NCBI RefSeq assembly: GCF_000337415.1 | Contig: NZ_AOJD01000032.1 | Coordinates: forward strand, 1-62,726 | Reading direction: 5' to 3' | Length of the DNA stretch: 62,726 bases | Source: Halorubrum tebenquichense DSM 14210 | Lineage (GTDB): Archaea; Halobacteriota; Halobacteria; Halobacteriales; Haloferacaceae | Part shown: one piece after another, positions 1-18,762 of the stretch | Position numbering within the stretch: position 1 is the first letter of the stretch | Layout: the number at the start of each line of letters is the position of its first letter | The notes under the pieces: model-generated | What the model was told of the DNA's origin: nothing | Database searches by the model: none | The model's input: the letters and a program-made list of their open reading frames with translations, nothing else | Translations under genes and position numbers: made by a program

Positions 1-1
1 G

Positions 2-391
2 GTCCGAGTCTGGGAGGGGAAGGGCGACAAGTTCCGCGAGACGCCGGCGCCGAGCGATCTCGCGATGCGGATCCAGACGATCGGCGATGTCCGCGACGCA
101 CCGAGCGACGAACCGGTCCTGTCGGTCTCTTCGACGCGGTCGCTCCGACGCTGGCTCCAGGGCGCTCGCGAGCAGCTGGCCGAGCAGGAGGACGACATCG
201 GCTGGGAGTTCCTCAGTACGCACGATCTCCGTCGAACGTGGGCGAGTGCGCTCGCGGACGCGGAGGTAGACCCACTCCTTGTTCTCGACTGGGGCGGCTG
301 GGAGGATCTAGAGACGTTCCTCGAACACTACAACGGGACGTACAGCCCAGCGGCGCAGCGGCGGGCTCGCGAGAAGGTGGCGTGGCTGTAG
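2..391 (+). CDS. Tyrosine recombinase/integrase, C-terminal part (5' cut by window edge)
   Basis: The reading frame is open from the first bases, so the gene begins outside the window. The visible 129 residues hold most of the catalytic domain: a GKGDKFRETP strand with the probable catalytic Lys, the HDLRRTW box (His-x-x-Arg), and a C-terminal EHYNGTY segment with the nucleophilic Tyr after the DWGGW helix. The first catalytic Arg must lie upstream. This fits haloarchaeal phage-type integrases that insert elements into tRNA genes, and the tRNA-Ala at 18763 is the likely target. The gene would excise and integrate the element. Nothing in it looks broken. Confidence 0.88.
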   Translation, partial: VRVWEGKGDKFRETPAPSDLAMRIQTIGDVRDAPSDEPVLSVSSTRSLRRWLQGAREQLAEQEDDIGWEFLSTHDLRRTWASALADAEVDPLLVLDWGGWEDLETFLEHYNGTYSPAAQRRAREKVAWL

Positions 392-435
392 GAACGAGCC
401 AAATTCTTTAATACGATACCGATGGTACTTTCAGT

Positions 436-459
436 TGCCTACGGGTGGAGACGCCGGCT
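436..459. repeat. 24-bp direct repeat, copy 1
   Basis: Starts TGCCTACGGGTGGAGAC and differs from copy 2 (650-673) at one base. It is followed by a short inverted repeat (AGTGG / CCACT, about 461-475). The two copies flank the 46-aa reading frame at 475-615. It may be a binding site for the integrase, an accessory protein or the element's regulator; that role is inference. Confidence 0.7.
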
Positions 460-474
460 AAGTGGCGTACTCCA

Positions 475-615
475 CTACTTCAACATCTCGACGAGCTTCG
501 CGGCTGTCCTGATCGTTTCTAGGGTCAGCTTCAGCTCCTGAATCCGGTCGAGACGAGTCGATTCCTCTTCATCGCTGTCGGATTCGGAATCCGACTGGAC
601 GTTGTCGTCACTCAT
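475..615 (-). CDS. 46-aa acidic microprotein
   Basis: A short frame (ATG at 615, stop at 475) between the integrase and the AbrB-like gene. The first 19 residues are almost all Ser/Asp/Glu; residues 20-46 form a predicted amphipathic helix (RLDRIQELKLTLETIRTAAK). No family is recognised. A TATA-like TTAA at about 643-646 on the minus strand, inside an inverted repeat, suits a leaderless start. The flanking 24-bp repeats and its place beside the integrase suggest a role in integration, excision or copy control, but that is only context. Its short length and lack of known homologues limit confidence. Confidence 0.55.
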   Translation of the reverse strand: MSDDNVQSDSESDSDEEESTRLDRIQELKLTLETIRTAAKLVEMLK

Positions 616-628
616 CGAGCGGGCTTCC

Positions 629-679
629 GTGGAAAAGCCGGCTTAACCCTGCCTACGGGTGGAGACACCGGCTTTCCAC
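629..679. promoter_or_regulatory. Inverted repeat around the promoter of the 46-aa gene
   Basis: GTGGAAAAGCCGG (629-641) faces CCGGCTTTCCAC (668-679), complementary apart from one extra A/T. Between them lies a TTAA motif at the right distance to be the TATA box of the 46-aa gene. A dimeric regulator or a recombination accessory protein could bind here. Copy 2 of the 24-bp repeat overlaps the right arm. Confidence 0.5.
650..673. repeat. 24-bp direct repeat, copy 2
   Basis: Same orientation as copy 1 at 436-459 and identical except for one A/G difference. It overlaps the right arm of the inverted repeat at 629-679. Confidence 0.7.
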
Positions 680-880: not shown

Positions 881-1147
881 TCAGTCCGCCTGCGACACGC
901 CCCGCCCGACACCGAGATCGAGCGCCCGCTTCGCTGCGAGCCGCTCGACGACCTCGCACTGTGCCAACTCCGGGAGGTCACCTCCCTCTTCAGGGATCCG
1001 GACTACGTAGGTCCGTCGCCCGAGCCGATCGACGTCGAGATGCTGTTCGTCCGGGAGCTCGCCCTCCTCTAAGAGGCCGTCCTTTTCGAGGTCGTCGCGC
1101 GGGAGCGTCACGACACCAGATCCGCCGTGGTCCTGTAGCTTCTGCAT
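881..1147 (-). CDS. AbrB/SpoVT-like small DNA-binding regulator
   Basis: 88 aa. The N-terminal half (QDHGGSGVVTLPRDDLEKDG) looks like the swapped-hairpin AbrB fold, with its typical glycine turn and V-T-L-P strand; the rest is acidic with a second strand-rich segment (TYVVRI). It is divergent from the large plus-strand operon, and the operator-like palindrome at 1255-1280 lies between them, so it is a good candidate repressor of that operon. The ATG at 1147 sits about 27 nt from a TATA-like CTTAAAG, fitting a leaderless mRNA. The fold call rests on a motif only. Confidence 0.6.
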   Translation of the reverse strand: MQKLQDHGGSGVVTLPRDDLEKDGLLEEGELPDEQHLDVDRLGRRTYVVRIPEEGGDLPELAQCEVVERLAAKRALDLGVGRGVSQAD

Positions 1148-1172
1148 AGCAGCGCCGTACTGTCTGGGTCTC

Positions 1173-1285: not shown

Positions 1286-1405
1286 ATGAGCGTCCACGAC
1301 GGGGTGAAAGAGTCCCCCGATTCCTCCAGTAATTCGGAGGCCGACCGCAGCGAAGTACAGCACTTTCAGGACTGGAAGAACATCGAGAGCGAATCTGATG
1401 TCTGA
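1286..1405 (+). CDS. 39-aa hydrophilic leader protein of the structural operon
   Basis: ATG at 1286 directly follows the palindrome; the stop TGA at 1403-1405 overlaps the start of the next gene by 8 bp. The product is hydrophilic and acidic (start MSVHDGVKESPDSSSNSEAD), without a known motif. It may be a real small protein or a translated leader that couples ribosomes into the next gene. Evidence is the tight overlap and position only. Confidence 0.45.
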   Translation: MSVHDGVKESPDSSSNSEADRSEVQHFQDWKNIESESDV

Positions 1406-1802
1406 CGGCGAGGTCGCCGTCCGGCAGGGCGGCCACGAACACGCCGTCGACGCGCCGCGCCTGAACGACCAGCTCCACGTCGATCTCGACCACGTAGAGG
1501 TCCCGCGGGTGAAGCTCCCGTCGGAGGTCGTCGTCGAGTATCAGGACGAAGACGACGTCGAGGGGGAGAATCTCCAGACAGACGGCGGGGAGACAGTTAA
1601 CCGAACGTACGTCGAGATGGGCGGGTCACAGACCATCAGCGACGAGCTCGCCGTCTGGTCGATCATCGCGGCTGGTGTTCTGCTGATGTCGGCGGGTTAC
1701 CTGTTCGGCATCGAGGCTAGCGGCTCCGGACTGATCGCAATGGTCGCCGGTGGCCTTCTCGGCTACATCGCGGTCCCCTCCTTCTGGAGTGAGGCGTCGT
1801 GA
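1398..1802 (+). CDS. Small membrane protein, two C-terminal membrane segments
   Basis: 134 aa. Residues 1-80 are hydrophilic and acidic; residues about 86-106 and 110-130 are hydrophobic and form a likely hairpin in the membrane. No family is recognised. The stop overlaps the GTG start of the surface protein gene (GTGA), so the two are translationally coupled and may act together in an envelope or secretion assembly. Soluble N-terminus followed by a membrane hairpin is compatible with an internal envelope-lining protein, but that is inference. Confidence 0.75.
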   Translation: MSDGEVAVRQGGHEHAVDAPRLNDQLHVDLDHVEVPRVKLPSEVVVEYQDEDDVEGENLQTDGGETVNRTYVEMGGSQTISDELAVWSIIAAGVLLMSAGYLFGIEASGSGLIAMVAGGLLGYIAVPSFWSEAS

Positions 1803-3574
1803 CTGAGCGCGCCGACCCGTACGGCATCCACCTGAGCGAGGCTGCTCGGGACTACCTGACCGCGTTTCGGCGCCGCTTCCCGCGACAAGATCGACTCGAA
1901 AACCACGGACTCGCCGCCGGAAACGGCTCCTTTCAACCGATGACTGACACCAACGACACCGACAGCGACGCACAGAACTACACCAACGTCAACCTCGAGG
2001 CGGCCCACTACGCGGCGCCGGACTCGATCGCCTGGACGTTCCTCGTGAGGACCGACGGCAAGCTCTCCCGGGATGTCGGCCGCCGGGCGTTCATGGCGGC
2101 TGCGGGCGCAACGCTCGCCGCCGGCATGGCGGGCGGCGCGGCCGCACAGAGCGGCGGTAGCCAGCTGAACTTCGGCTACGACCTCCTGTCTGACCCGTGG
2201 ATCACCGGAGACGTGACCGTCGAGACCCACGAGCCCGACTTCGATGCGTTCGACTACATCGCCGACGACGAATCGGTCCAGTCCCTCGCCGGTGCGACCC
2301 TCGCCGACCGGGAGGACGAGGACACGCCGCACAACCCCATCCGCATCCGGGGTGACCTCATCGACATCGACGACTACCGTCGCTTCCCAGCGGACCTCAC
2401 GACCACGAACTCGGACGACGAGGAGGTCGACGCGTCCGCACTTGATGCGGAGTTCTGGACCACCGACGAGTCCGGGAGCACTGGGACGATCTCCGTCACC
2501 GAGGAAGACGACGCGCTCAACATCGCGGCGACCGGGCAGGCCGCAGGTGACACCGCGACCGCGACGTTCAGCGACTTCACCATCGGCGACGGAGAGCAGC
2601 GCCGCGTTCTCCAACTGGTCGCCAACGTCAACGAACTCGCGGCGGACGCGGTCGTTTCCGTCCGGGTCGTCGACGCGGCGGGCAACGAGGTCGTCGCGAC
2701 CATCGACTCGTCGGCCGACTCCAGCGCCGACGACGTGATCGCGACCGCTCAGGGCTCGGGTCACATCTTCCAGACGCAGCTCGGCGACATGCCGGGCGGC
2801 CCCGACCTGGACACGATCGAGGAGGTCGTCGTCGACGTCTCCGAGGCCGACGCGGACGTGACGTTCCACGGGTTCAACCTCGAAAGCTCGTCGCGCTGGC
2901 AGTTCGGTAACCGCGAGCGCGTGAACAGCGACGAGGAGCTCGTAACCGAGACCGTGTACGAACAGACCGGCTGGTTCGGGATCACCGAGCTCTCGACGCT
3001 GTACGACACGGACCGCTTCGCGAACGCTGTCCTCGAGGAAGTTCGGTACGACGCCGCGTTCCGCGTCTCCGAGCTCCCGAGCTCGTACGTCGAGTTCGAG
3101 TTCGAGGACTCCGGCCGCGACGACTACAGCCGCCGGATGCGGTACGTCTACAACTTCAAGTTCCCGAGCGCGTACTCGCTGTCGATCACGCTCAACACGT
3201 GGTACGACGAGGTGGTCTTCCAGTACCCGTCGGACCGCTACATGGCGATGGAGGTCGCCACGGGTCTCAGCGAGCAGGTCGCGCTTGACGGCACCGACGA
3301 CGTCGAGTGGACGTCGCGGACCTCGACGTACACCGGTGCCAGCGAGGGCGACGACATCGAGCTCTCGGGGACGCCGTCCTCGGACTCGGTACTCGCTCTC
3401 CACGGCGACGTGCTGTACCGCGGAAGCGAAGAGGACTCGGCGACGTCGTCCGCGGCGATGGGGCCGACCGGCCGAGAGGGCGGCGGGCTTCTCTCGACGT
3501 GGCTGGGGAAGATCGGCGCGGTGCTCTCAGCACTCGGCCTCGCCGGACTGGCAAACGCTTTCCGGGGGTCGTAG
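1799..3574 (+). CDS. Tat-type secreted surface protein (spike-like candidate)
   Basis: 591 aa from the GTG at 1799, preceded by a GGAGTGAG Shine-Dalgarno-like stretch and overlapping the upstream stop. A twin-arginine segment (GRRAFMAAAGATLAAG, residues 94-109) precedes a predicted cleavage after about residue 116, giving an unusually long n-region of about 94 residues; an internal ATG at 1940 would shorten it to about 47. The mature part is acidic and beta-rich, with Thr/Ser-rich stretches. The last 29 residues (from GLLSTWLGKIGAVLSALGLA) are hydrophobic and could anchor it in a membrane. It fits an envelope spike or a surface adhesin. No known family is recognised with confidence. Confidence 0.78.
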   Translation: MTERADPYGIHLSEAARDYLTAFRRRFPRQDRLENHGLAAGNGSFQPMTDTNDTDSDAQNYTNVNLEAAHYAAPDSIAWTFLVRTDGKLSRDVGRRAFMAAAGATLAAGMAGGAAAQSGGSQLNFGYDLLSDPWITGDVTVETHEPDFDAFDYIADDESVQSLAGATLADREDEDTPHNPIRIRGDLIDIDDYRRFPADLTTTNSDDEEVDASALDAEFWTTDESGSTGTISVTEEDDALNIAATGQAAGDTATATFSDFTIGDGEQRRVLQLVANVNELAADAVVSVRVVDAAGNEVVATIDSSADSSADDVIATAQGSGHIFQTQLGDMPGGPDLDTIEEVVVDVSEADADVTFHGFNLESSSRWQFGNRERVNSDEELVTETVYEQTGWFGITELSTLYDTDRFANAVLEEVRYDAAFRVSELPSSYVEFEFEDSGRDDYSRRMRYVYNFKFPSAYSLSITLNTWYDEVVFQYPSDRYMAMEVATGLSEQVALDGTDDVEWTSRTSTYTGASEGDDIELSGTPSSDSVLALHGDVLYRGSEEDSATSSAAMGPTGREGGGLLSTWLGKIGAVLSALGLAGLANAFRGS

Positions 3575-3964
3575 ATGGCAGCTTCTGGCAGTAGCGGCGG
3601 TGGCGACACCGACTACCTAAGCCGGGCAGATGGCGAGAGCATCAACAGCGGCATCATCAAGGCGATTCTCGCTCCGGTCCTCGCGACTGGCTCGGGGATC
3701 GCGATGCTGATCGACTCCGGACTGCGGTCGTTCTCGGACATCTTCGAGATCTTCGGAGACGTTCGGACGCTCGTTGGCGCGTTCTTCACCAGCCCGACCA
3801 CCGCGCTGGAGATGGCGGCCCAAGCGACTGGGGTGTCATCTCAGCAGTTCGGCATACTGGCGATACCCATCGTCATGGCGAGCATCGCACTCGGTCTTGT
3901 CCTGGTCGACGCCATCTGGGGCGGCGAGATTCCGATAGTGAGCGCGATCAACCCGCTCTCCTGA
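3575..3964 (+). CDS. Small membrane protein
   Basis: 129 aa, starting on the base after the surface protein stop. Hydrophobic segments lie at about residues 27-49 and 92-116; the N-terminal 20 residues are Gly/Ser-rich and soluble. Small proteins with this layout next to a spike-like gene are typical of membrane-enveloped haloarchaeal viruses, but no sequence family is recognised. Confidence 0.72.
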   Translation: MAASGSSGGGDTDYLSRADGESINSGIIKAILAPVLATGSGIAMLIDSGLRSFSDIFEIFGDVRTLVGAFFTSPTTALEMAAQATGVSSQQFGILAIPIVMASIALGLVLVDAIWGGEIPIVSAINPLS

Positions 3965-3966
3965 CC

Positions 3967-4047
3967 ATGATGGGAACGCCGCAGACCGTCGCGTCCGCGG
4001 CGGACGAGAGTGGAGACGCTCCTTCAAAGAGACGAGGTGACCGATGA
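3967..4047 (+). CDS. 26-aa bridging microprotein
   Basis: ATG at 3967, two bases after the previous stop, ending TGA at 4045-4047 inside the ATGA overlap with the next gene. It fills what would otherwise be the only sizeable gap in this part of the operon. The product is hydrophilic (MMGTPQTVASAADESGDAPS plus a basic tail). It may merely carry ribosomes to the next start, where a GAGGTGA Shine-Dalgarno lies inside it. Confidence 0.4.
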   Translation: MMGTPQTVASAADESGDAPSKRRGDR

Positions 4048-4418
4048 GCGGCGACAGACAAACGAGTCTCACGTCCGACGACTTCCGGTCTGACGGACGC
4101 ATCCAGTGGACCGAACTTGGGAAGACGCTTCTAACGAGCGTCTGGCTAGCATGGGGCTCGTTCCTCGCCGGTGTGAGTGAGCTTGTGTTCGGCCTGCTAG
4201 GTTCGCTCATCGAGTGGCTGTACAGCGGGTATGCGACGCTCCTCAGCCTCCCGTTCGAAGGCTGGACCGGCCTTCTCAGAGCCGCATGGAGAGGCGCCGC
4301 CCAGTCAATCGCCGGGTTCGGCCTCGGAGCGTGGTTTGTTGCGATCATCGTCATTGTCGCGTTCTTCCTGCTGGCAGAACGGGCGTTCAGGGTACTCACT
4401 GAGGGGGTCCAGCCATGA
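4044..4418 (+). CDS. Membrane protein of the structural operon
   Basis: 124 aa. A GAGGTGA Shine-Dalgarno precedes the ATG at 4044. Residues about 25-70 form a long hydrophobic stretch (two segments) and residues 88-115 a third, followed by a short charged tail. Stop and next start overlap as ATGA. No family is recognised. Together with the next two genes it forms a run of small multi-span proteins probably inserted in the same membrane complex. Confidence 0.72.
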   Translation: MSGDRQTSLTSDDFRSDGRIQWTELGKTLLTSVWLAWGSFLAGVSELVFGLLGSLIEWLYSGYATLLSLPFEGWTGLLRAAWRGAAQSIAGFGLGAWFVAIIVIVAFFLLAERAFRVLTEGVQP

Positions 4419-4903
4419 GCAGCAACGAGGAAGAGGGCAGTATCCTCCCGACTTGGGTGATTACAATCACCACCGCTGGGCTTGGAACGACTGTTGCTTC
4501 CTTCGCTCGCAACCCGGAGACCTTCATCTACGCCATCTTCGTCGATGGCGTCCTTGGCGCCTGGGGTTGGCTGCTCGATAACGTGTTCGGACGCCTGTAC
4601 TGGGTTATCGAACTCGCTCTGGTTGATGGAGTTGCGGTCCCGCTCAGTCGGGCGGCCAATATGGCCGGTTCATCCCTCTACGGCGCGCTGATATCGATTC
4701 AGACGTGGGCCGAAGGGGAGATGATGAGCCTCGGTATCGCGGCGCCGTTCGCGCTCGCGATTTCGTGGCTGATCATCGCCACGATCGTCGCGATAATCTC
4801 CCAGCTGCTCTGGGGATTCATCGAGACGTACCTGCCCGTCGACTCGGTCACCGGAGCACTGCGGTCTCTCTGGTCGGCGATCGCCGGAGGTGATAACGCA
4901 TGA
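4415..4903 (+). CDS. Membrane protein of the structural operon
   Basis: 162 aa. A short charged N-terminus is followed by hydrophobic segments around residues 11-30, 32-70 and 111-140, the last strongly hydrophobic (SWLIIATIVAIISQLLWGF). Starts in an ATGA overlap with the previous gene and ends in another with the next. No recognised family. Confidence 0.72.
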   Translation: MSSNEEEGSILPTWVITITTAGLGTTVASFARNPETFIYAIFVDGVLGAWGWLLDNVFGRLYWVIELALVDGVAVPLSRAANMAGSSLYGALISIQTWAEGEMMSLGIAAPFALAISWLIIATIVAIISQLLWGFIETYLPVDSVTGALRSLWSAIAGGDNA

Positions 4904-5166
4904 GCAACCTCAAAGATGCGATTCTCGGAGGTGGCGCTGGTCTCGTCGCGATCGACGGACTGTGGTCCGTCGTGGACCTCGGGTTCGCGTTCGCCGATGT
5001 TGCGTATGTCCCGCTATCTGTGGCGTTCGGGACGCTCGCACCGAATGTCGACTTCATCTCGCAGGAGACGCTCCAGCCAGTGATGGTGTTCGTCGCGCTG
5101 CTGTACGTGTCGAACCTCCTGATAAAGCGGATACAGCGCTACAGAAACGGAGATTCTGATGACTAA
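4900..5166 (+). CDS. Small membrane protein with a perfect Shine-Dalgarno
   Basis: 88 aa. GGAGGTGAT stands 6 nt before the ATG, a full match to the expected haloarchaeal anti-Shine-Dalgarno, which fixes the start. Hydrophobic stretches cover residues about 7-48 and 58-76, then a basic tail (RIQRYRNGDSDD). The strong ribosome site suggests a product needed in more copies than its neighbours. No known family. Confidence 0.72.
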   Translation: MSNLKDAILGGGAGLVAIDGLWSVVDLGFAFADVAYVPLSVAFGTLAPNVDFISQETLQPVMVFVALLYVSNLLIKRIQRYRNGDSDD

Positions 5167-5260
5167 CAACACAACGGAACGAACGGAGAACTGCTCGCGG
5201 CTCCTCCTCGAGGAGCTGAACAACAGTCTACGGTCCCCTGGAGGTGGAGGACCGTGCTAG
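5159..5260 (+). CDS. 33-aa bridging microprotein
   Basis: ATG at 5159 overlaps the previous stop by 8 bp and TAG at 5258-5260 overlaps the next GTG start by 7 bp, so it exactly spans the gap between two membrane protein genes. The product (start MTNNTTERTENCSRLLLEEL) is soluble with a short helix and a Gly-rich end. Its 3' part also contains the GGAGGTG that serves the next gene. It may be functional or only a coupling frame. Confidence 0.42.
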   Translation: MTNNTTERTENCSRLLLEELNNSLRSPGGGGPC

Positions 5261-5940
5261 CACAGATATCGCTGTTCGGCGTCGCGATGTCGCCACTGCT
5301 ATGGGGGCTACTCGGCGTCTCGGTCATCTCGCTAATCGGTCTGCGGGCTGCCCGCGAAGAGGGCTCCGACCCGAACCGGCTCGAATCGGTCGCGTGGGGG
5401 TTGACTCTCGCCATGCTTTCGTACGTCATGTACGTCTCGTACACCGCGTCCGACGTCGCCGGCGTCGCTCAGTGGATCGTCGCGGGACAGGGCCGCGTGT
5501 GGGTCGGTATCGGGTTCGTCACCTGGGCCGGCTACATCTGGCAGCAGACTGCCGGCGAGGTCGACAACCGTCGGGACATGGTCGACACCCTTCGAGAGCG
5601 CGTGACGCGTCCGATGCTGGCTATCGGGGGCATCATCTCGACGGTGCTTATCACGGCACTCGTCGGTCTCTCGACGTTCGCGGCCGTCGCCGGCGACATC
5701 CTCGGATTCGTGTTCGGTGCGTTCGCTTCCGAGCCCGGATTCGGTGCCGCGGTCGTGACGACGGTCGGCGGGTGGATATCCTTCGGAGGTTCCGTCCCGC
5801 TGATCGACCCGTTCATCCCCGCGTGGGCTCGCGGTGTCTCGCCCATCGGATGGCTCGGGTTCGCGGGTCTCGTCATCATCATCGGGCTGTCGTTCCGGTC
5901 GCAGAACTTCCGCCAGGCACTGCTGGGGAGGGCCAACTGA
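5254..5940 (+). CDS. Polytopic membrane protein (about six segments)
   Basis: 228 aa. GTG start at 5254 with GGAGGTG about 9 nt upstream. Hydrophobic segments lie near residues 3-30, 47-67, 70-97, 118-145, 150-180 and 195-215, separated by short charged loops. It is the most hydrophobic protein of the operon and could be its central membrane scaffold or channel. No transporter motif is visible and no family is recognised. Confidence 0.75.
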   Translation: MLAQISLFGVAMSPLLWGLLGVSVISLIGLRAAREEGSDPNRLESVAWGLTLAMLSYVMYVSYTASDVAGVAQWIVAGQGRVWVGIGFVTWAGYIWQQTAGEVDNRRDMVDTLRERVTRPMLAIGGIISTVLITALVGLSTFAAVAGDILGFVFGAFASEPGFGAAVVTTVGGWISFGGSVPLIDPFIPAWARGVSPIGWLGFAGLVIIIGLSFRSQNFRQALLGRAN

Positions 5941-10547: not shown

Positions 10548-13501
10548 AACGCTCGCTAGCGATCGCGGCCGCGACGATCGTGGTCGTCTCGATGCTCGCG
10601 ATGCCGCTCGGCGCTGCTGTCGCGACGGCTCAAAGCGGGCCGAGCGGGATGGTCGCACTCGGTCCTGATCAGGTTGATGAGGACCTGCCGAGCAACGCGG
10701 ATGTACCCATCCGCGCGAGCGACCTCGAAGGGAACGTGTACGCGTCCGACCACGCGGGTACGCTCCAAATCACGGTCACGACGCCCGAGCGGGCAAGCGA
10801 CTACATGGGCGAGAACGCGAACGTGGTCGCGGACGACGATATCGCGATTGTGCTGGCCGACGACGAGGTCCACGAGGGACGCGATGTCGCTGTTGACCTC
10901 GGCGTCCTCGAGGCCGGCGTCGGCTACGTTCCCGACGTCGCGTACGGCGTCCACGACTCCGGCGAGGAGTGGCAGTCGCCTATCGAGCAGGAGGACGGAG
11001 TGGGGCGATTCCACGTGCCGGAGTTCTCGTCGAATAGCGTCACCTTCTCTGGTGGGATTACTCTGTCAGGGAACGCCGCTGCGGACGGGACGAACTACCA
11101 GTACGAGCTGGACAACTTGAACGGTGTCTCCGATTACGCGATCAATTTGACGGGCGTCACTAACAGCGGCTGGAGTAACGTCTCGGCTGGCGGTGTGTCT
11201 GACGGTGACACAATCTCGATTGATGTGGGCGGCAACCTCGATCCGATAGGACCGAGTAGCGGAGAACCAACTGTGACCTTTACAGGAGATCTCAAATATT
11301 ATAATCAAATTGATGAATACGGGGATGGGAATGCCGATGGTGACGCGGGATTTGTTGGAGATAATGGCGCTTACAACAATCCATTAAAATCCAGCATGGA
11401 AGTCACACCTAAAAAAGACATTACATTAAACTCGTTTAAACTACACGTTGGTTCTGTTTCAGGCTCGGATTACGGTCCAACTGTCGAGGTCAGGATTGCC
11501 TCCGGGCAAGCCGATGAGACATGGGGAGACGGGACTCAAGTCGCCACATGGGAGCCTGATTGGACAACTGGTAACCAGACCGTTTCCCTCGATTCATCTG
11601 AGACACTACAAGCAGGTGAGACGTATGAATTTGAGTTCATCACCGACTCGGAAAATAATAATGGAGAGGATGACCAATTAGAGCTTTCGTATGATAGCGA
11701 TTCATCATCTGTCAAATTCTTACGGGACTACGGTCAAGTAGCCGACTATGAGACATATCCCAGCCTTTTGCTCCCTAACGCAGAAAGCGCAGATCCGGCT
11801 ATTGATATAGACGGGGACGGCACAGACGAAGCAAGCTATTCAGGGACTTTAACCGACGGAGAGTCTGTTACTCGGGATCTTAGCCAGCTATCGAAATCGA
11901 CAGATAACGCGGATATATCTCTCACCTCGGGAGCGGTCGATGTTGATTTTAAAATCAAAGAGCGGACTCAAACGTCAGATCCCGTCGTGGAAGTTAACGG
12001 CTACGAGACTGAACATAACGGTGTCCTGAGCGAGGGTGAGACGACCTCGCTCGCAACGAACGAGGCGTGGCTCCAGGAGGGCACCAACAACGTCACCATC
12101 CGGACGAACACGCCCTCGAACGGGCCCGAGTCACTTGTCGACCTAGAGTACAGCCACGACGCCAGCGGAGTGACGAAGTCCGTCGACATCGAGGCGACCT
12201 CGTGGACCGAGTCGTTCAACGTCTCGCACACGTTCCCATCCGCGGTCGCAGACGCGGATGCGACGCTGACGTTCGATGAACAGGTCGCGGAGATCAACGA
12301 CGTCGAGTACCGCATCGATGGCGGCGACTGGCAGGCACCGCCCGACTACGAGCTCAACGGAACCGACCTCCACGTCGGTCTCGGTGACGTCGAGGCGGAC
12401 ACGGAGATCGACGTCCGGGCGACCGGTCACAAGGTGCGCGCGTACGACGGGTCCGTGAGGGTGACCGAACCGACCGTCGAAGGCGATGACCTCTCGACCG
12501 AGGTGGAGATAACCGACATCAATCCGGACGGGATGTTCGGCTTGCGCGTCGACGAGACCGTACTCGGCGACCGACTCCACTACGCTAGCGAGGAGTCGTG
12601 GACCGGCGAGTCCGCCCACGCCGAGCTGACTTCGAGCGGCACGCAGATCCTCCGCGCCGAGGACGCAAACGAGGGGTCGACGATGCGGGTCTCGACCGCA
12701 CCAGTCTCTGTGTCACCGGAGAGCGGGGCTATCGAAGCTGAAGTTGAAGACGGGAGTGAGCCGACGTTCTCGCTCCGAAAGGGCAACACGACCGGCTCCG
12801 ACCGCATCAAGGTGACCTACTACGATACGGTGACGGGAGACCGGTACGCGCTCTGGTCTGAAACACGGGAGGTCGAAGTCGACGCCGACCGAGCCGAGTC
12901 GCCTGTCAGCTTCATCACTGACGGCTCCTCCGAGACGTACAGCATCCTCCAGCGGGATGCCGGACAGCAGCCCCCTGAAGACCCGCCTATCGGGCCGACC
13001 GATCAAGAAGGGACACTCTCGCTCGTACTGGCGTTCGTGGGCATCGGCGGCGTCCTCGTTGGGTCGACGTTCGTGAGCCGGAAGTTCAACATCGGTGGCT
13101 GGCTCCTCCCGGTGACCGCGACATCGCTGACCGCCGTCGCGATACAAGTCCTTTCGCCGGGTTCGCCGCTGCTCCGTGTGGCCCAGCTCGCCTCGGAGTC
13201 GAACGCGGTCACGATCGGGGCGGTCGCTGCGCTCCTGATTGGCATGTGGCAGCTCGACGAGAGAACGAGTGGGAAGGTCCCGTGGTACGTCCGCGGGGTC
13301 ATCGGTGTCTTGTCGGTCGTGTGGGCACTGGAGACCATCTCGCCGGGCGTCATCCTCGGAGGGCTTCGCCAGGGCGTCGAATCGATGGGGCCGCTCATCG
13401 TGATCGTGATCGTCGGCGGCGGCGCGTACCTAGTCCGCGAGTGGATTCAGGCGCGTCGGGCGCCGGACACGGTCGTCGAGTTCAGCGCGGGGGAGCAGTA
13501 G
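10544..13501 (+). CDS. Large surface protein with signal peptide and C-terminal membrane segments
   Basis: 985 aa, the largest product of the element. Residues 1-29 form a Sec signal peptide ending ATAQS. Residues 30-820 are an acidic, beta-rich ectodomain with many Asn-x-Ser/Thr sites. About five membrane segments follow: near 825-843, 851-870, 888-904, 917-937 and 949-967. The nucleotide stretch from about 11275 to 11990 (residues about 244-482) is clearly AT-richer and uses different codons (AAT, ATA, TTA, AAA) than the rest, as if a domain had been exchanged. A receptor-binding or fusion role in an envelope is likely but unproven. Confidence 0.78.
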   Translation: MKRSLAIAAATIVVVSMLAMPLGAAVATAQSGPSGMVALGPDQVDEDLPSNADVPIRASDLEGNVYASDHAGTLQITVTTPERASDYMGENANVVADDDIAIVLADDEVHEGRDVAVDLGVLEAGVGYVPDVAYGVHDSGEEWQSPIEQEDGVGRFHVPEFSSNSVTFSGGITLSGNAAADGTNYQYELDNLNGVSDYAINLTGVTNSGWSNVSAGGVSDGDTISIDVGGNLDPIGPSSGEPTVTFTGDLKYYNQIDEYGDGNADGDAGFVGDNGAYNNPLKSSMEVTPKKDITLNSFKLHVGSVSGSDYGPTVEVRIASGQADETWGDGTQVATWEPDWTTGNQTVSLDSSETLQAGETYEFEFITDSENNNGEDDQLELSYDSDSSSVKFLRDYGQVADYETYPSLLLPNAESADPAIDIDGDGTDEASYSGTLTDGESVTRDLSQLSKSTDNADISLTSGAVDVDFKIKERTQTSDPVVEVNGYETEHNGVLSEGETTSLATNEAWLQEGTNNVTIRTNTPSNGPESLVDLEYSHDASGVTKSVDIEATSWTESFNVSHTFPSAVADADATLTFDEQVAEINDVEYRIDGGDWQAPPDYELNGTDLHVGLGDVEADTEIDVRATGHKVRAYDGSVRVTEPTVEGDDLSTEVEITDINPDGMFGLRVDETVLGDRLHYASEESWTGESAHAELTSSGTQILRAEDANEGSTMRVSTAPVSVSPESGAIEAEVEDGSEPTFSLRKGNTTGSDRIKVTYYDTVTGDRYALWSETREVEVDADRAESPVSFITDGSSETYSILQRDAGQQPPEDPPIGPTDQEGTLSLVLAFVGIGGVLVGSTFVSRKFNIGGWLLPVTATSLTAVAIQVLSPGSPLLRVAQLASESNAVTIGAVAALLIGMWQLDERTSGKVPWYVRGVIGVLSVVWALETISPGVILGGLRQGVESMGPLIVIVIVGGGAYLVREWIQARRAPDTVVEFSAGEQ

Positions 13502-13508
13502 TAGACCG

Positions 13509-13823
13509 ATGTTCGCCGCCACGGAGTTCTTGGCGTCGCTGGGGCTCGGCTCTCAGCTCGTCATGGGCGCGTCCTTTGCGATAGCCGCGCTGTATATCTA
13601 CCGGGCGGTCGGCATCGCCCGTGTCGTCGCCGGGATCGGCGGCCTGATCGCAAGCCACGCGCTCGTGATCCTAGTCGTCGCCGCGGTCGCGATCTCGCTT
13701 GGGTGGGTGGCTCCGAATGCCGGGACCGCGCTCGAGCACGCACGAATCGTATGGGAGTTCGCGACCGGTCGCGGGCTCTCGCTCGCTCGCGGTCTGCTTG
13801 AGTACGTGAGCGTGCTTGCGTAA
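13509..13823 (+). CDS. Small three-segment membrane protein, last gene of operon
   Basis: 104 aa, ATG 7 nt after the previous stop with GGGGAGC upstream. Hydrophobic segments at about residues 5-30, 33-50 and 52-72, then a soluble helix. The operon ends here. Its position after the giant surface protein suggests a partner of that protein's membrane domain. No family recognised. Confidence 0.68.
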   Translation: MFAATEFLASLGLGSQLVMGASFAIAALYIYRAVGIARVVAGIGGLIASHALVILVVAAVAISLGWVAPNAGTALEHARIVWEFATGRGLSLARGLLEYVSVLA

Positions 13824-14136
13824 TTGCCGACGGTCGAATCTTACGCGTAGGCTCAATTTTCGCGCGCGGCGCAACCCCTGTTTCGAGTGCTTCAACTGGA
13901 GTTGTGCTGTGCGGGTGCTGAGTATTTTCCCCCGAAGGGGGTGCCCTTAGGCACACTCCCTAAGGGGTCCGTCCCAGCCTGTGGGATCGAAGCCAGCCCG
14001 GACGCGGGGCTGGCGGAGATCGCGGTCACGATCGAAGCGGCGACCAACGCCGAAAATACTTCCATCACTCACAGAATGCTACGCAAGAAAACACGAACCG
14101 GGGATCAAGGTAGTGTTGCCACTCATCTGTCGTGCG
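13824..14136. other. 313-bp hairpin-rich spacer between convergent operons
   Basis: No believable reading frame. Three stem-loops follow each other: CCCCC-GAA-GGGGG (13929-13941), CCCTTAGG / CCTAAGGG (13944-13951 with 13959-13966) and CCAGCCC / GGGCTGG (13993-13999 with 14007-14013). The spacer could be a two-way transcription terminator, a structured RNA or a replication origin. A terminator is the simplest reading because two long operons meet here, but T-runs are absent. Confidence 0.5.
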
Positions 14137-16029
14137 TCAGCGGGGGAGCTTCGAAGAGAAGAGCACGTCGCCGTTCCGGTTGATCGGCCGCTGACCCGTC
14201 CGACGTCCCTTCCCCTTCTCGGTGTAAGAGAACTTACCGCTGATGAACCGCCGGTAGGCCATCGACCCGGTCTCATCGGCGGCGTCGACGCCGGCGCGGA
14301 TGAGCTTCACGAGCTCGACGCGCGAGAGCGGACGGCCACCGAGATCGACGACCATGCCGTCGACGGACTCCGTGATCGAGACACCGTGACGTCGGGCCCA
14401 CCGCGCGAGCGACGAGTCCTGGTCGATCGTCTCCGTCTCGGCGGAGGCGAGCTGCCGCACGCCGCCGACAACCCAGTCGGTGACGTCCTCGAACGTGTTG
14501 AGCAGGTCCTGGAACTTCTTGCGGATCACCTCGTCCTCGAAGGACATCTTCGCGTTCGCGACCTCGACCAGGTCGTCGAACTTCTCCGCGGCGCGGTAAA
14601 CGGTCGACCGAGATGTGTCGGACATCTCCGCCAGATTCTCGATGTCGGCTCCGTCGCCGCCGTCGGCGAGGGCTGTGAGCACGGAGCGCTCGCCCTCGGA
14701 AGCGTCGCCGCGAGCAAAGTGGGCGACTGCCTGCTCCTCCTCGCCGTCCTGGACGCTCGGCATCTTGTTCTCGACGAGGTCCAGATCGCGCTCGGACTCG
14801 GTGACCTCGAAGTAGTGGTCGGCCGTGTAGATCCGCGGGTCGGCGCGGGTCGGTAGGCCGGCCCACAAGAGGACGTTCACGAGCGACTCGTCGAGCTCCG
14901 TGCGGAGCGCCTCGACGTCGAAGGCGTCCGGATCGTCCCACGGGACAGACGCGATGTCAGAGTACTCCTTCGACCACTGGAGTTCGAGCTTGGGATCGGA
15001 GAGCGGATCGTCCTCGGCCGACGTCTCCTCCGACCGGGCGAACTCGGGATGGTAGTACTTCGCCGTCTTCCCGACTGAGTGTCGCTTCTCCGTGAGCTTC
15101 TTCCAGGTGCCAGCGTCGAGAGAGACGGCGTTTCGATGGCCGATGACCTTCTCGTTGTCCCACTTGTACTCGCCCTTCCCGCGGTGGTTCGAGCCGAAGA
15201 GCGCGAGTTGATCGAGGACGGCACCCTTCCCGGCGATGTGCTGCTCGCCGGCGTTGCGGTCGAGACGGAGGTACATCTCCATCTGGTAAGCGTTCGAGAA
15301 CTCGTGGCGGCACTCGTCACGGAAGTAGTGCTCGTTGATGTTCAGCTCGTCTGCGAGCCGCCGCAGCAACGGGATCACCTCGTCGGGTTCGAGGTTGCTA
15401 GAGTTGGCCTGAACGCGGAGCCCGTACGGGAGATCCTCGGGCATCGAGTCGATCCGCTCGCCGTCAGCGGTCCGGGCGTCCGGGACCGATGGGCGGAACT
15501 GGAACGTGGCCTTCCGCTCCCCGAGACCGTCCTGCGCTCGGACGCCGATCTGGTACTCGTTGAACGTCTCGTAGGGGCGAGCCGGTGCCGCGATCCCTCC
15601 GGACCAGTACCGCGTCTTCTCCGGGTTGATCTCCCAGAGCTCGCCGTCGAAGACGAACGAGCCGATATCGACCGCGATCGTCGGCTCGTACTGCGAGACG
15701 ACTGCGTCGTACGGCGACAACGAACCGGGGTGACCGTTCTGAGAGACGTCCGGCTGCGAGAACAGCAAGTGCGCCCCGAACGCGTGAACACGAGGCTCGA
15801 CACACGGAATCGGCCCGTCGGTGTCGAACGTCTGGTACTCAGTCGACTCCGGGCTCTCCGGATGGACCTGACGTGACGCCTCACCGACCGCCTCGCGGAG
15901 CTCTTCGCTCTCTTCGGACTCTATCGTGCCCTCGACCGAGTCCTCGCTGTCAGAGGTCACCGGCTGGGCGTCGTCGAGCAGCTCGGCGAGGTCGCCCTGC
16001 GGGCCCGGTTCGAGGTAGTCGTCGCTCAC
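14137..16029 (-). CDS. Large winged-helix protein, possible replication protein
   Basis: 630 aa from the GTG at 16029, which overlaps the preceding stop (GTGA) and has AAGGAGGT upstream. The N-terminal 60 residues are acidic and probably disordered. A long alpha/beta region follows (with FEVTES- and MYLRLDRN-type strands), then a helix-turn-helix at about residues 440-490 (LAEMSDTSRSTVYRAAEKFD). The C-terminus is basic. I know of similar proteins in haloarchaeal plasmids and proviruses but without an established function. As the only large protein in the non-structural operon it is the best candidate for the element's replication initiator; this is inference. Confidence 0.7.
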   Translation of the reverse strand: MSDDYLEPGPQGDLAELLDDAQPVTSDSEDSVEGTIESEESEELREAVGEASRQVHPESPESTEYQTFDTDGPIPCVEPRVHAFGAHLLFSQPDVSQNGHPGSLSPYDAVVSQYEPTIAVDIGSFVFDGELWEINPEKTRYWSGGIAAPARPYETFNEYQIGVRAQDGLGERKATFQFRPSVPDARTADGERIDSMPEDLPYGLRVQANSSNLEPDEVIPLLRRLADELNINEHYFRDECRHEFSNAYQMEMYLRLDRNAGEQHIAGKGAVLDQLALFGSNHRGKGEYKWDNEKVIGHRNAVSLDAGTWKKLTEKRHSVGKTAKYYHPEFARSEETSAEDDPLSDPKLELQWSKEYSDIASVPWDDPDAFDVEALRTELDESLVNVLLWAGLPTRADPRIYTADHYFEVTESERDLDLVENKMPSVQDGEEEQAVAHFARGDASEGERSVLTALADGGDGADIENLAEMSDTSRSTVYRAAEKFDDLVEVANAKMSFEDEVIRKKFQDLLNTFEDVTDWVVGGVRQLASAETETIDQDSSLARWARRHGVSITESVDGMVVDLGGRPLSRVELVKLIRAGVDAADETGSMAYRRFISGKFSYTEKGKGRRTGQRPINRNGDVLFSSKLPR

Positions 16030-16388
16030 AGGTCGACCTCCTTCGTCGGGACGATCACAGCGGCCTCCCGGCCCTCCTCGAAGTGAGCGGCGACCGGAAC
16101 CCATGGCGCGTCGATGTCGTCACCGCGATCGTGGTTTGACCAGTCGTAGGTCGACACCTCGGCGTGCTCGGGAGCGATCGCGAGGACGTACGGGCCAGAG
16201 CGATACCCGCGGACAGGGACCGTCGAGTGACGGACAGCCCGAATGTGTTTCCCGGCGATCCGCCGGCGTGGGACCGGATGCGTGCCGAGCGTGTCGGCGA
16301 CGACATCCTTCGTGAACGGACAGGCAGCGACACGACCGCCGCCTCGATAGCGCGCGATGGGACGCCGGAGAAGCGGTTCCGCCGACAT
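16026..16388 (-). CDS. Unrecognised 120-aa protein
   Basis: ATG at 16388 lies in an ATGA overlap with the nuclease gene and has GGAGGT before it; it ends in a GTGA overlap with the large winged-helix gene. The protein is basic in its first half (RRPIARYRGGGRVAACPF) and strand-rich in the second (AAVIVPTKEVDL at the end). No motif recognised. It probably works with one of the two flanking DNA-acting proteins. Confidence 0.65.
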   Translation of the reverse strand: MSAEPLLRRPIARYRGGGRVAACPFTKDVVADTLGTHPVPRRRIAGKHIRAVRHSTVPVRGYRSGPYVLAIAPEHAEVSTYDWSNHDRGDDIDAPWVPVAAHFEEGREAAVIVPTKEVDL

Positions 16389-16870
16389 CACTCGACCTCC
16401 GTGGGGTCGAAGATGTTGCTCCACGCGAGCTGCGCCTTCCGACCGCGGCCATCCAGTTCGTCGCGCCAGCTGGCGTTCGCGTCGACGAGGCCGCCGACGC
16501 TCCGCGCCGGGACGATCTTCATCGCGATGGGTTCCCGGGCGGGGCGGGGCTCGCAGACGAGGAAGCAGTAGACACCGCGTCGCTCGACGAGCGCCTCGTG
16601 TTGGCTCTCGCGGAGCTTGTAGCGACCGCGGCGCTGAGCGGTGGTCTGGACGACCATCGCGCTCTTGATCTCGACCGGGAGCCCGGCCTCGACGACGCAG
16701 AGGCCAGCGAACGGCAGGTCGTCACGCGGGAAGATGGCGGTCTCGGCGACAGCGTCCCAGTGTTCCTCGCCGGACGTGGGTTCGAGCTCGCCGACGGCGT
16801 CGAGGACGTGATGCTCGGCGTTGTGGCCCGCGCGCTTCGCGGCGGCGAGGGGGTCCTGACTCCCGCTCAT
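16388..16870 (-). CDS. PD-(D/E)XK-type nuclease
   Basis: 160 aa, ATG at 16870. The pattern is that of a Holliday-junction-resolvase-like or related small nuclease: helix with Glu19 (AGHNAEHHVL), a strand with Asp50/51 (FPRDDLPFAG), then VEIKSA with Glu67 and Lys69, followed by RGRYKLRESQHEAL and a hydrophobic strand (GVYCFLVCE). Such enzymes cut branched or double-stranded DNA; here it could process replication intermediates of the element or attack competing DNA. It overlaps both neighbours by ATGA. Frames that start further upstream are out of register with the previous gene's end. Confidence 0.72.
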   Translation of the reverse strand: MSGSQDPLAAAKRAGHNAEHHVLDAVGELEPTSGEEHWDAVAETAIFPRDDLPFAGLCVVEAGLPVEIKSAMVVQTTAQRRGRYKLRESQHEALVERRGVYCFLVCEPRPAREPIAMKIVPARSVGGLVDANASWRDELDGRGRKAQLAWSNIFDPTEVE

Positions 16871-17022
16871 CGGTCCAACCTCGCGGGCATGCGGATGTCG
16901 CGAGCGCTGGTCCAGGGCCGGATGCGGGCGGCACCGCCGCCGTAGGCCCAGACGGTAGCACCGAGGAGGTGCTCGCGAGCGATCGACGCACGATCGACAC
17001 CGTCGGTGGATCGATCGCTCAC
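16867..17022 (-). CDS. 51-aa basic protein
   Basis: GTG at 17022 overlaps the preceding stop (GTGA) with AGGTGG upstream; it ends in an ATGA overlap with the nuclease gene. The longer frame to 17130 lies inside the previous gene and is rejected. The product is basic with a GGGAARIRPW segment. No family recognised. Confidence 0.55.
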   Translation of the reverse strand: MSDRSTDGVDRASIAREHLLGATVWAYGGGAARIRPWTSARDIRMPARLDR

Positions 17023-17510
17023 GCGGAACCACCTGCCCACTTCGCGAGCGTATGCTGTTCTTCGGTTTCCGCCACCGCGAAGTCCATCTTGTCGTCGGTA
17101 TCGATCTGGTGGACATCGGCGAGATGCCATCCGAACGCGTTCCCTGACGGGAACCTCTCGTTACAGAGGCTACATCGCTGATGTTCGGAGATCTCGATAA
17201 CGACCGGCTCGGGTTCTCCGAGCTCGTCGCGCCGGACGTAGTGCCAGCCGTCGAACTGCGGGTGATCGGCGATAGCGCGGCTTAGACGGTTCCGAAGTAC
17301 CTCATCGACCTGGTAGAGCCCACGTTTCCACTGTCCGAGGTCCTCGGAGTAGTGGAGGTGTTCCAACCGTCCATGCGGGCCGCGGAACAGGTAGTCGTCC
17401 GAGGTAGCCCACTCGTCGAGGACGCACACTCCGAGGTCGGCGGAGATTGTATCGAGGATCTCCGCGGTGAGCTGATCGGCTCCGTCTCCGGATCGCTCAC
17501 TCGGGGGCAT
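17019..17510 (-). CDS. C2H2 zinc-finger protein
   Basis: 163 aa from the ATG at 17510 with GAGGTGG upstream. Near the C-terminus is a classical finger, C113-x2-C116-x12-H129-x4-H134 (RCSLCNERFPSGNAFGWHL). The rest is acidic and contains Tyr/His-rich strands (RLEHLHYSEDLGQWKRGLY). Single C2H2 fingers are frequent in haloarchaeal viruses and plasmids and usually bind DNA or protein. It overlaps the preceding 59-aa gene by 14 bp and the next gene by 4 bp. Confidence 0.72.
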   Translation of the reverse strand: MPPSERSGDGADQLTAEILDTISADLGVCVLDEWATSDDYLFRGPHGRLEHLHYSEDLGQWKRGLYQVDEVLRNRLSRAIADHPQFDGWHYVRRDELGEPEPVVIEISEHQRCSLCNERFPSGNAFGWHLADVHQIDTDDKMDFAVAETEEQHTLAKWAGGSA

Positions 17511-17676
17511 AGACCACCTCAACCTCGTCAATGTCTTTCTCCTCGCCGTTGTCGAGTTTGACCCACCGGTTATCGACGACAGCCACAACGCGGCCGTCTG
17601 CGATCCCCCGACCGTCGTCGGGATCCCACGCAACGATAGCACCCTGTTCAATCTCTCCGTCGGACTGATCGCTCAC
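17497..17676 (-). CDS. 59-aa small beta-barrel-like protein
   Basis: GTG at 17676, with GGAGGTGA upstream and a GTGA overlap with the preceding gene; stop at 17497. The strand pattern (GAIVAWDP, RVVAVVDNRWVKLDNGEEKD) resembles small SH3-like barrels of the KOW/Tudor type. It would bind nucleic acid or a partner protein. No family can be assigned. Confidence 0.6.
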   Translation of the reverse strand: MSDQSDGEIEQGAIVAWDPDDGRGIADGRVVAVVDNRWVKLDNGEEKDIDEVEVVYAPE

Positions 17677-18221
17677 GGCCGGTCACCTCCGTAGAGCGCG
17701 GCCTGAGCGTCTGGATCCCAGCGGTAAACGCCCTCGTGGTCGCGGTACCACGCCACGAATTCACCGGCTCGCTTGCGCTCGACCTTGACGGATTCGACCG
17801 GGTCGAGGCGGCGGTCGACGGTCACGAACCGAACGGTCTCACCCTCTGGTTCGGCGCTGTCATACAGTGCGAGGCCGTCGACACCGAGCGCGACGCGGTT
17901 CATCCGCTCGCCGTCGACGCTGATCTGGTCGGGAACCTCGTCGATAGAGACGAAGCGCTGTCCTCGAACCGCGTACGTGTCCGGGTCGTCGACGTCGAGC
18001 GCTCGCATCTGCTCCCAGAGCTCCGGGTGCTGGTCGCAGAACCGAGCGAGGTGGAACGAGCAGAGCGCTTCGTCGCCGCCGAAGTGGGGCCACGCGACGC
18101 GGTAGACGGCGTCGTTGTCGCAGTGACCGGTCCCGCAGTCACCCTCGTCGATGGGACCGATGTCGGGTTCGAGCGGCGGCGCGCCCGAGGTCTCCCAGGC
18201 ACCGCGTCCGACGCGGCTCAT
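17673..18221 (-). CDS. Zinc-binding protein, 182 aa
   Basis: ATG at 18221, GGAGGG upstream. Putative zinc ligands are C29, C34, C54, H57, C62 and H65 (DCGTGHC ... ALCSFHLARFCDQH). The C-terminal half has a strand-rich region (GETVRFVTVDRRLDPVESVK) and a Trp/Tyr-rich end (FVAWYRDHEGVYRWDP). No family recognised. Both ends overlap neighbours (ATGA, GTGA), fixing the start. Confidence 0.68.
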   Translation of the reverse strand: MSRVGRGAWETSGAPPLEPDIGPIDEGDCGTGHCDNDAVYRVAWPHFGGDEALCSFHLARFCDQHPELWEQMRALDVDDPDTYAVRGQRFVSIDEVPDQISVDGERMNRVALGVDGLALYDSAEPEGETVRFVTVDRRLDPVESVKVERKRAGEFVAWYRDHEGVYRWDPDAQAALYGGDRP

Positions 18222-18475
18222 CGCTGCCCTCCGTCGGCTCGGGCGGCGTCGACGCGCTGCCCGCGGTTACGATTCGGTTGGTCGGCCGGGTCAGCGAGAT
18301 CGACGGTCTGTCCGGCGGCGCTCCCACGACTCACTCGGCGGAAGCAGTCGCACCCGAGACAGCGGTGGACGTCGCCGCGATCGTCGCCGAACACATCGGC
18401 GAATCGGTCGGAGACGTGACGGCCGCAGTTGCGGCACTCCTGCGCCTCGCGCTCGTCGACACGGAGGCGCATCAT
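18218..18475 (-). CDS. Zinc-ribbon protein, 85 aa
   Basis: The ATG at 18475 sits in an ATGA overlap with the 40-aa gene, 6 nt after GGAGGTG; a GTG further upstream is less likely. C14-x2-C17 and C39-x2-C42 (ECRNCGRH ... HRCLGCDCFR) make a zinc ribbon of the type seen in small nucleic-acid-binding proteins. The rest is a disordered polar tail. Confidence 0.65.
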   Translation of the reverse strand: MMRLRVDEREAQECRNCGRHVSDRFADVFGDDRGDVHRCLGCDCFRRVSRGSAAGQTVDLADPADQPNRNRGQRVDAARADGGQR

Positions 18476-18594
18476 GGCCGGCACCTCCCGTCATCGAGGG
18501 CGGGGCACTGTTCGTCCTCGTCACCTTCGTTGAGCGGAAGTCCGCAAAACTCGCAGCAGACCGGTTCGAGGACCGTATCCTCGGACGCGGTCAT
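18472..18594 (-). CDS. 40-aa zinc-finger microprotein, first gene of minus operon
   Basis: ATG at 18594 preceded by GAGGGGTGAG, a good Shine-Dalgarno. Cysteines 13, 14, 17, 30 and 38 (PVCCEFCGLP ... QCPALDDGRC) can bind one zinc. It leads the chain of nine coupled genes down to 14137. Small single-zinc proteins of this kind are common in haloarchaeal mobile elements. Confidence 0.6.
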   Translation of the reverse strand: MTASEDTVLEPVCCEFCGLPLNEGDEDEQCPALDDGRCRP

Positions 18595-18762
18595 GCCGTC
18601 TCACCCCTCTGAGGATCGCCCGACGGCAGCGATGCGCGTTCGGGACCGGAATGAAATCCGTTCTCCGAGGGGTTCGTTTCGAAAGTCGATTCTGCTGTTA
18701 CCGCCGTAGCGAAGGCTTTTGCTGTCGGTTTAGAAGCAACCGTTACGGCGGAGAAATCGGAA
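18595..18762. other. Junction spacer between element and tRNA
   Basis: 168 bp without a gene. ACCGCCGTAGC at about 18695 and GTTACGGCGG at about 18742 form an inverted repeat (CCGCCGTA / TACGGCGG) around AGCGAAGGCTTTTGCT, itself nearly palindromic. These may be arm sites for the integrase or an operator of the minus operon. No clear TATA box stands at leaderless distance from the ATG at 18594. Confidence 0.45.

Follow-up and report, generated by a model that had tools for sequence, protein, structure and literature searches.

A tRNA-Ala-integrated element of Halorubrum tebenquichense with a betapleolipovirus-type replication module and an uncharacterised membrane-protein operon: a probable enveloped-particle agent

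Closest described systems and how the element compares

Several described archaeal agents come close, each in a different respect, to the integrative element reported here, which occupies a tRNA-Ala gene of Halorubrum tebenquichense DSM 14210 (contig NZ_AOJD01000032.1, hereafter C32; the window, that is, the whole stretch of DNA analysed, measures 62,726 nucleotides and starts at the first base of C32). The betapleolipoviruses HRPV-9, HRPV-10, HHPV-3 and SNJ2 share with it a Rep-Arvir gene convergent with the structural operon, an origin motif, a tyrosine integrase and a zinc-finger (CxxC) gene at the attachment (att) end, and the HerA-type ATPase of the element appears distantly related to their VP8; proteins of the Rep-Arvir type are rolling-circle initiators, as demonstrated in SNJ2 (PMC13107129). 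The lemon-shaped Haloferax virus LSV-48N (PP151251) has in common Rep-Arvir (probability 100), the motif downstream of its gene, an integrase, many membrane proteins and large surface proteins. PAV1, which also bears a Rep with the DUF7845 domain (PMC13107129), and the pTN2 group of plasmids share the ATPase family (p12-10p / ORF375, probability 99). The apHPVs, exemplified by the plasmid vesicles of pR1SE (PMC10818511; known here by description), are haloarchaeal integrative elements whose surface- and membrane-protein genes form a conserved block with a HerA/VirB4-like ATPase, while the pT26-2 plasmid family of Thermococcales and Methanococcales, again by description, is integrative and combines a membrane-protein block with a HerA-like ATPase in a proposed transfer system (PMC6972569). 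Finally, Halfvol2 of Haloferax volcanii is an induced 12.3-kb provirus at a tRNA-Ala gene which encodes ten membrane proteins, was found in circular form in a virus stock and was proposed to represent a novel lipid-enveloped group (PMC7911831).

The element of H. tebenquichense belongs to a widespread family that joins a known replication module to an uncharacterised structural module, and it is most likely an enveloped-particle agent. On balance, it is probably a member of a new haloarchaeal integrative family travelling in membrane-enveloped particles. Halfvol2 may be a relative: integration at tRNA-Ala and many membrane proteins are common to both, the 12.3 kb of Halfvol2 are about equal to the structural cassette alone of the present element, and the search of Haloferacaceae genomes gave no match assignable to Haloferax volcanii DS2. 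Should the two be related, the family would represent a known group greatly enlarged and not a new one. A wider proposal, possible but tentative, is that of a haloarchaea-wide, unrecognised family of infectious agents with a virion or vesicle architecture of its own (shell proteins with two transmembrane (TM) segments, a five-TM protein termed F3, a spike of the carbohydrate-binding module (CBM) type and a giant adhesin), in which a HerA-type motor would actively pump DNA into a membrane particle.

A sequence-only reading of this stretch had suggested an undescribed agent, either enveloped-virus-like or plasmid-vesicle-like. The suggestion gains weight from a predicted DNA-pump ATPase with kin in VP8 and in PAV1/pTN2, from a Rep and an origin of betapleolipovirus type, from an anchored surface protein of CBM type and from targeting by clustered regularly interspaced short palindromic repeats (CRISPR). 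It fails for plasmid-vesicle elements of the pR1SE type, which are rejected because the subtilisin-like S8 peptidase (ORF7) that defines that group is absent: a Pfam search for peptidase S8 in all large operon proteins found none. The gene set and the gene order also differ.

In its specific sense, the likeness to pleolipoviruses is not borne out. Protein families F0-F9 and F13 of the element (F numbers denote families, L numbers loci, and G and C numbers genomes and contigs) were compared by hhalign with alignments from seven pleolipoviruses. For the block VP3-spike-ORF6-ORF7 that characterises Pleolipoviridae, the spike reached a probability of 0.6, VP3 and ORF7 gave no match, and the 591-aa protein F5 matched ORF6 at 62.8%, limited to a 94-residue N-terminal stretch. 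The element, unlike betapleolipoviruses, therefore has no homologue of the spike VP4, of VP3 or of ORF7, and is larger, with a 560-aa five-TM protein and a 985-aa adhesin. Its Rep and origin are of betapleolipovirus type, a module that is common to other kinds of elements too.

A second comparison bears on the idea that the element is a lemon virus of spindle shape, either a relative of PAV1 or one that functions like LSV-48N, in which one of the two-TM proteins of 88-130 aa would be the major capsid protein. Several two-TM proteins of suitable size are indeed encoded, Rep and origin are common to LSV-48N, the ATPase belongs to the PAV1 ORF375/pTN2 family (phrog_22963), and the most abundant protein of LSV-48N likewise carries a cellulosome-type beta-sandwich (PMC12714723). 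However, F0, F6, F7, F9 and F13 have no profile match to the His1 proteins tested, nor do F5, F3 and F2 match LSV-48N proteins; in the comparison of F0-F9 and F13 with coding sequences 6, 12, 15, 16 and 17 of this virus nothing was found past the Walker A motif, to which the match of the F1-type ATPase is limited. Similarly, the rest of the cassette is unrecognised in the pTN2-family proteins compared. A spindle-shaped virus is quite improbable.

The structural operon and its ATPase

The structural cassette is a membrane-protein-rich operon on the + strand (1398-13823) for which our gene calls give 16 genes, one of them encoding an ATPase; the sequence-only reading had described the operon correctly in kind and had counted 19 genes. 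The ratio of nonsynonymous to synonymous substitution rates (dN/dS) relative to the copy in Halorubrum salinum lies between 0.15 and 0.43 in 12 genes, which are thus working genes and not chance open reading frames: the coding is real, and the 12 tested genes are under purifying selection.

Profile searches with the 985-, 591-, 560-, 373- and 630-aa proteins found kin for the 373-aa ATPase (pTN2/PAV1 and VP8) and for the 630-aa Rep. No convincing match was obtained for F2, F3 and F4 among curated families and solved structures, so that an identity with a solved structure is rejected for F3 and F2. The layout of F3, the hallmark of the family, consists of a signal segment, an extracellular domain, five TM segments placed centrally and a cytosolic tail. 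F5 has a signal segment and a C-terminal anchor, and its model (mean predicted local distance difference test (pLDDT) score 76, above 90 in the core) contains a beta-sandwich that matches family-11 CBMs at Z about 12. Its identification with a pleolipovirus spike is rejected, as no profile match to the spike exists; among the matches listed for the model in PDB and BFVD there are CBM and tail-fibre beta-sandwiches and no pleolipovirus spike. As previously read from the sequence, no capsid, terminase or tail genes are recognisable in the element. Within the F2 gene, G+C content falls to 0.50 in positions 11001-12000.

The ATPase, F1, is predicted from its model (pLDDT 88.7, HerA/FtsK fold) to be a DNA translocase. 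Its structural matches include HerA (Z 17.7), the genome-packaging NTPase B204 of STIV2 (Z 15.7), VirB4 (Z 15.3) and TrwB (Z 14.3), and its profile kin are the ATPases of pTN2 plasmids and PAV1 ORF375 (probability 99, E 1e-18; phrog_22963), which are closer than the more remote pleolipovirus VP8 (probability 95, E 4e-8 over 175 columns). A DNA pump encoded beside membrane proteins and anchored surface proteins fits a membrane particle into which DNA is loaded, and would also fit a transfer channel. In the latter case the element would be an integrative and conjugative element, its operon a simplified archaeal DNA-transfer channel, its Rep-Arvir a relaxase-like nickase and F1 a motor of VirB4/TrwB type. 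The proximity of the ATPase fold to VirB4 and TrwB argues for this, as do the many membrane proteins of the operon, the structural kinship of Rep-Arvir with Rep_trans enzymes (among them NicK, the relaxase of ICEBs1), the reported occurrence of certain DUF7845 genes in integrative conjugative elements (PMC13107129) and the similar make-up of pT26-2 plasmids, for which a transfer system has been proposed (PMC6972569). On the other hand, the scanned proteins contain no Pfam domain of VirB4, VirD4 or TraG type, no pilin or pre-pilin peptidase was recognised, and the nearest kin of F1 are found in pTN2-type plasmids and enveloped pleolipoviruses, not in conjugation systems. Conjugation is a possible reading and appears less likely than enveloped particles.

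If the element does travel in enveloped particles, its cycle might proceed as follows. The integrase or integrases would recombine it out of the tRNA gene and a circle would form, Rep-Arvir would nick the conserved hairpin origin and start rolling-circle replication, and the operon would place small membrane proteins, the five-TM protein and a pair of large anchored surface proteins, of which one has a domain of carbohydrate-binding type, in the cell membrane. F1, with its partner F4, would then pump DNA into a budding particle, which would attach to a new host via its surface proteins. Computation shows the family and its conserved gene order, the purifying selection, the Rep with its origin motif, the fold and relatives of the ATPase, the junction at the tRNA and the CRISPR targeting; excision, the particles and the direction of pumping are all inferred.

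Replication, spread and exchange of the cassette

Convergent with the structural operon, a - strand operon (18484-14137) of about seven genes includes one gene resembling nucleases and two that encode zinc-finger proteins. The earlier description of a convergent operon with nuclease and zinc-finger proteins thus holds, except for its count of nine genes. The 630-aa protein, previously read as a winged-helix protein, does contain the winged helix, with weak helix-turn-helix hits beside DUF7845 in Pfam, but is identified by DUF7845 (E 3e-89) as a replication initiator. It belongs to phrog_3288, which is common to betapleolipoviruses, it matches betapleolipovirus and LSV-48N proteins with an hhalign probability of 100, and its Tyr326 column is invariant (18/18). 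A rolling-circle nickase is present in the element, whose replication is predicted to follow the rolling-circle mode. The motif TTAGN(3-4)TGTGSCTAARG has one match in the window and none in 100 shuffles, and stands at the same place in HRPV-9, HRPV-10, HHPV-3 and LSV-48N; it was set by eye from these viruses and the window itself, and its spacer was relaxed after a first pattern had missed the copy in the window. The DUF7563 zinc-finger gene recurs in relatives in the same tRNA-proximal position.

The search for the same gene order elsewhere, suggested by the sequence-only reading, showed that the element is not unique. F1 is present in 43 of the 293 genomes of the order, and F3 in 18/345 genomes of the phylum, all of them haloarchaeal and within this order, and in roughly one in four of the Haloferacaceae genomes searched (42/170). 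The 20 loci taken around the ATPase follow the cassette order F5, a set of small TM proteins, F3 (of some 570 aa), F4 (some 275 aa), F1, F2 and a two-TM protein, the exceptions being one short contig without the F5 end and two loci with F2 upstream of F3. Named genomes yielded a further 42 loci, of which 37 have F3, F4 and F1 together; the genera represented include Halorubrum, Halobellus, Haloarcula, Haladaptatus, Halovivax, Natronomonas, Haloferax, Halorhabdus and Halorussus. The order is repeated across haloarchaeal families. One locus labelled Rhizobium sp. S152 (L091, NZ_JAUDRZ010000015.1) carries the element much as Halobaculum litoreum does and is probably a contamination or a wrong label. 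The plasmids pNG400 and that of Haloarcula sp. GH36, with an integrase and a related ATPase and without the cassette, were rejected as carriers. In the open-licence literature searched, the cassette is not described.

Three observations speak for a mobile cassette. First, several hosts carry two different copies. Second, host families are intermixed in the ATPase tree. Third, modules are exchanged: in Halorubrum sodomense (L112) most of the Rep side is 82-94% shared with the window while the cassettes share about 35%, and at G004:C1:1978007-1984877 F3 and part of F2 show 74-88% DNA identity to the window and the ATPase stands at only 38%, a pattern that suggests exchange inside the cassette. 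In H. tebenquichense itself, a 37-kb contig holds a second, divergent cassette (G000:C3:10523-20000, L175; F2, F1, F4, F3, F6, F9, F7, F0 on the - strand).

These data also bear on a domesticated or plasmid-maintenance membrane apparatus (for adhesion, secretion or defence) that would sit on mobile islands with no role in transfer. The large adhesin-like proteins would suit such an apparatus, and the cassette occurs in chromosomes and, as a whole, on a circular plasmid (163 kb) from Halosegnis marinus together with MCM and PolB genes. Nevertheless, many copies are linked to an integrase and Rep, lie at tRNA sites and are patchily present, single hosts acquired the cassette repeatedly, and CRISPR spacers target it, which makes this the least likely of the explanations and a very improbable one.

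The CRISPR evidence comes from an array with 197 or more repeats in the genome of another Halorubrum (L176, G321:C10:17990-30904 and beyond). Besides the spacer that matches the F3 gene, a second one matches the family member of G004 (30/35 bases), and the pleolipovirus HRPV-9 is matched by two more. Since the protospacer in F3 had been picked as the best short match of a search of the genus, the fair test is that of the four matches as a set, against which five shuffles of all 196 spacers gave none. Judged from these spacers, the element is suggested to invade cells.

Several results weigh against enveloped particles. In profile and structure searches, none of the structural genes proved homologous to a characterised virion protein. 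ATPases of the HerA fold are also employed in conjugation and secretion, as VirB4 and TrwB (Z 14-15) illustrate. IMG/VR, scanned with the 560-aa protein and with the ATPase and its alignment, and the INPHARED phage records, searched by tblastn with the ATPase, gave no relative. A 37-kb cassette contig of G045, checked for circularity, has no terminal overlap and no gene over the joined ends, and free circular or packaged element DNA was not seen. Viral detection appears to be blind to this family, given the frequency of its hallmark in Haloferacaceae and yet its absence from IMG/VR and, by ATPase, from INPHARED. Shared, swappable modules tie together pleomorphic viruses, lemon-shaped viruses, plasmids and HerA motors, and the family therefore bears on the interconversion of archaeal viruses and plasmids. 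As Halorubrum is culturable, particle production is directly testable.

Insertion site, element limits and feature coordinates

The tRNA-Ala site proposed earlier is confirmed. In the comparison of the chromosomal flank on the tRNA side with 52 Halorubrum genomes, the match mostly ends within a few bases of the 3′ end of tRNA-Ala(GGC) (18759-18763), which places the insertion boundary there, and in Halorubrum salinum GX71 the element has the same coordinates and ends at the same tRNA. The limits given for the element (1-18762) were instead incomplete. An 18-bp copy of the tRNA end lies on contig C31 (40243-40260), 12 kb left of the end of that contig and beside a second integrase (341 aa), and coincides with a step in G+C from about 70% to a lower value. 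With this repeat as its left limit, the island spans about 31.4 kb across C31 and C32, carries two integrases and has most of one copy in the window; it may be one composite element or two tandem elements.

The tyrosine integrase claimed for the left end is likewise real in its C-terminal part (E 3e-8; 89% identity to L076 997-1665), but is cut by the contig end. The end of C31 (52602-52744) carries the N-terminus of a very similar integrase, after which its last 18 bases are CTGTCTCTTATACACATC (locus L160). We take these to be the Tn5/Nextera mosaic end (adapter), so that the break within the integrase is explained by an assembly artefact; about 150 bp are probably absent between C31 and C32, judging from Halorubrum salinum.

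Table 1. Features of the element, with positions in the window
Feature	Position	Strand	Basis
Small tyrosine integrase, C-terminal part (222 aa in Halorubrum salinum)	2..391	+	Pfam Phage_integrase E 3e-8; contig start cuts gene
88-aa small protein, F10 family, recurrent at this place, AbrB/SpoVT-like start by eye	881..1147	-	dN/dS 0.16
134-aa protein, two predicted membrane segments, first gene of operon	1398..1802	+	dN/dS 0.40
F5, 591-aa secreted surface protein, C-terminal membrane anchor, CBM-like beta-sandwich (residues 190-365)	1799..3574	+	alignment, model
F0-like 129-aa two-TM protein	3575..3964	+	dN/dS 0.28
124-aa two-TM protein	4044..4418	+	dN/dS 0.35
F7-like 162-aa two-TM protein	4415..4903	+	dN/dS 0.36
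F9-like 88-aa two-TM protein, candidate small structural membrane protein	4900..5166	+	dN/dS 0.43
228-aa four-TM protein	5254..5940	+	relatives in L077, L084, L092
72-aa two-TM protein	5940..6158	+	gene call
145-aa soluble protein	6155..6592	+	gene call
55-aa one-TM protein	6592..6759	+	77% identity in L076
F3, 560 aa, family hallmark	6760..8442	+	dN/dS 0.19
Protospacer in F3 gene	7171..7205	+	32/35 bases match spacer 15, CRISPR array of another Halorubrum (G321:C10)
F4, 273-aa soluble protein adjoining ATPase	8420..9241	+	family recurrence
F1, 373-aa HerA/FtsK-fold ATPase, predicted DNA translocase	9238..10359	+	model and profile
63-aa small protein	10356..10547	+	62% identity in L076
F2, 985-aa surface protein, signal segment, several C-terminal membrane segments, predicted adhesin	10544..13501	+	dN/dS 0.27
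F19, 104-aa two-TM protein, last operon gene	13509..13823	+	dN/dS 0.32
Origin-like hairpin block directly downstream of Rep gene	13922..13990	-	motif TTAGN(3-4)TGTGSCTAARG at 13945-13963
Rep-Arvir (DUF7845 and winged helix) rolling-circle replication initiator, 630 aa	14137..16029	-	PF25227 E 3e-89
Small replication-operon gene, start uncertain	16026..16424	-	51-54% identity in L076, L112
160-aa protein, ExK nuclease-like motif by eye	16388..16870	-	phrog_2095 E 2e-17; 78-82% identity in L076, L112
163-aa protein, C2H2 zinc finger	17019..17510	-	PF13912 E 3e-5, just under curated cut-off
182-aa protein	17673..18221	-	66% identity in L112
88-aa DUF7563 zinc-finger protein, tRNA end	18218..18484	-	PF24444 E 2e-13
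Candidate attR	18759..18776		18-bp repeat GGAATGGACTCGCGGGGA; second copy C31:40243-40260
tRNA-Ala(GGC), integration site	18763..18834	-	tRNA call and flank comparison

In relatives, the right ends have tRNA-Ala(CGC), tRNA-Pro(GGG) and tRNA-Pro(CGG) nearby, in Halobellus inordinatus, Halobaculum litoreum and Haloarcula pellucida; a repeat of at least 12 bp that would form an att pair, sought up to 21 kb from relatives at tRNA-Ala, tRNA-Pro and other tRNA genes, was not found. A further copy of the tRNA end, on contig C47 of this genome, was rejected as the other end of the element, as it flanks an unrelated island. This island (G000:C47:77348-94063; L005, L006) is of low G+C content, measures 16.6 kb, extends from tRNA-Ala(CGC) to a copy of its 3′ end and has an integrase of its own. 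Outside the element, the G+C content of the window drops sharply to 0.41-0.50 at 29001-31000, where another insertion possibly lies.

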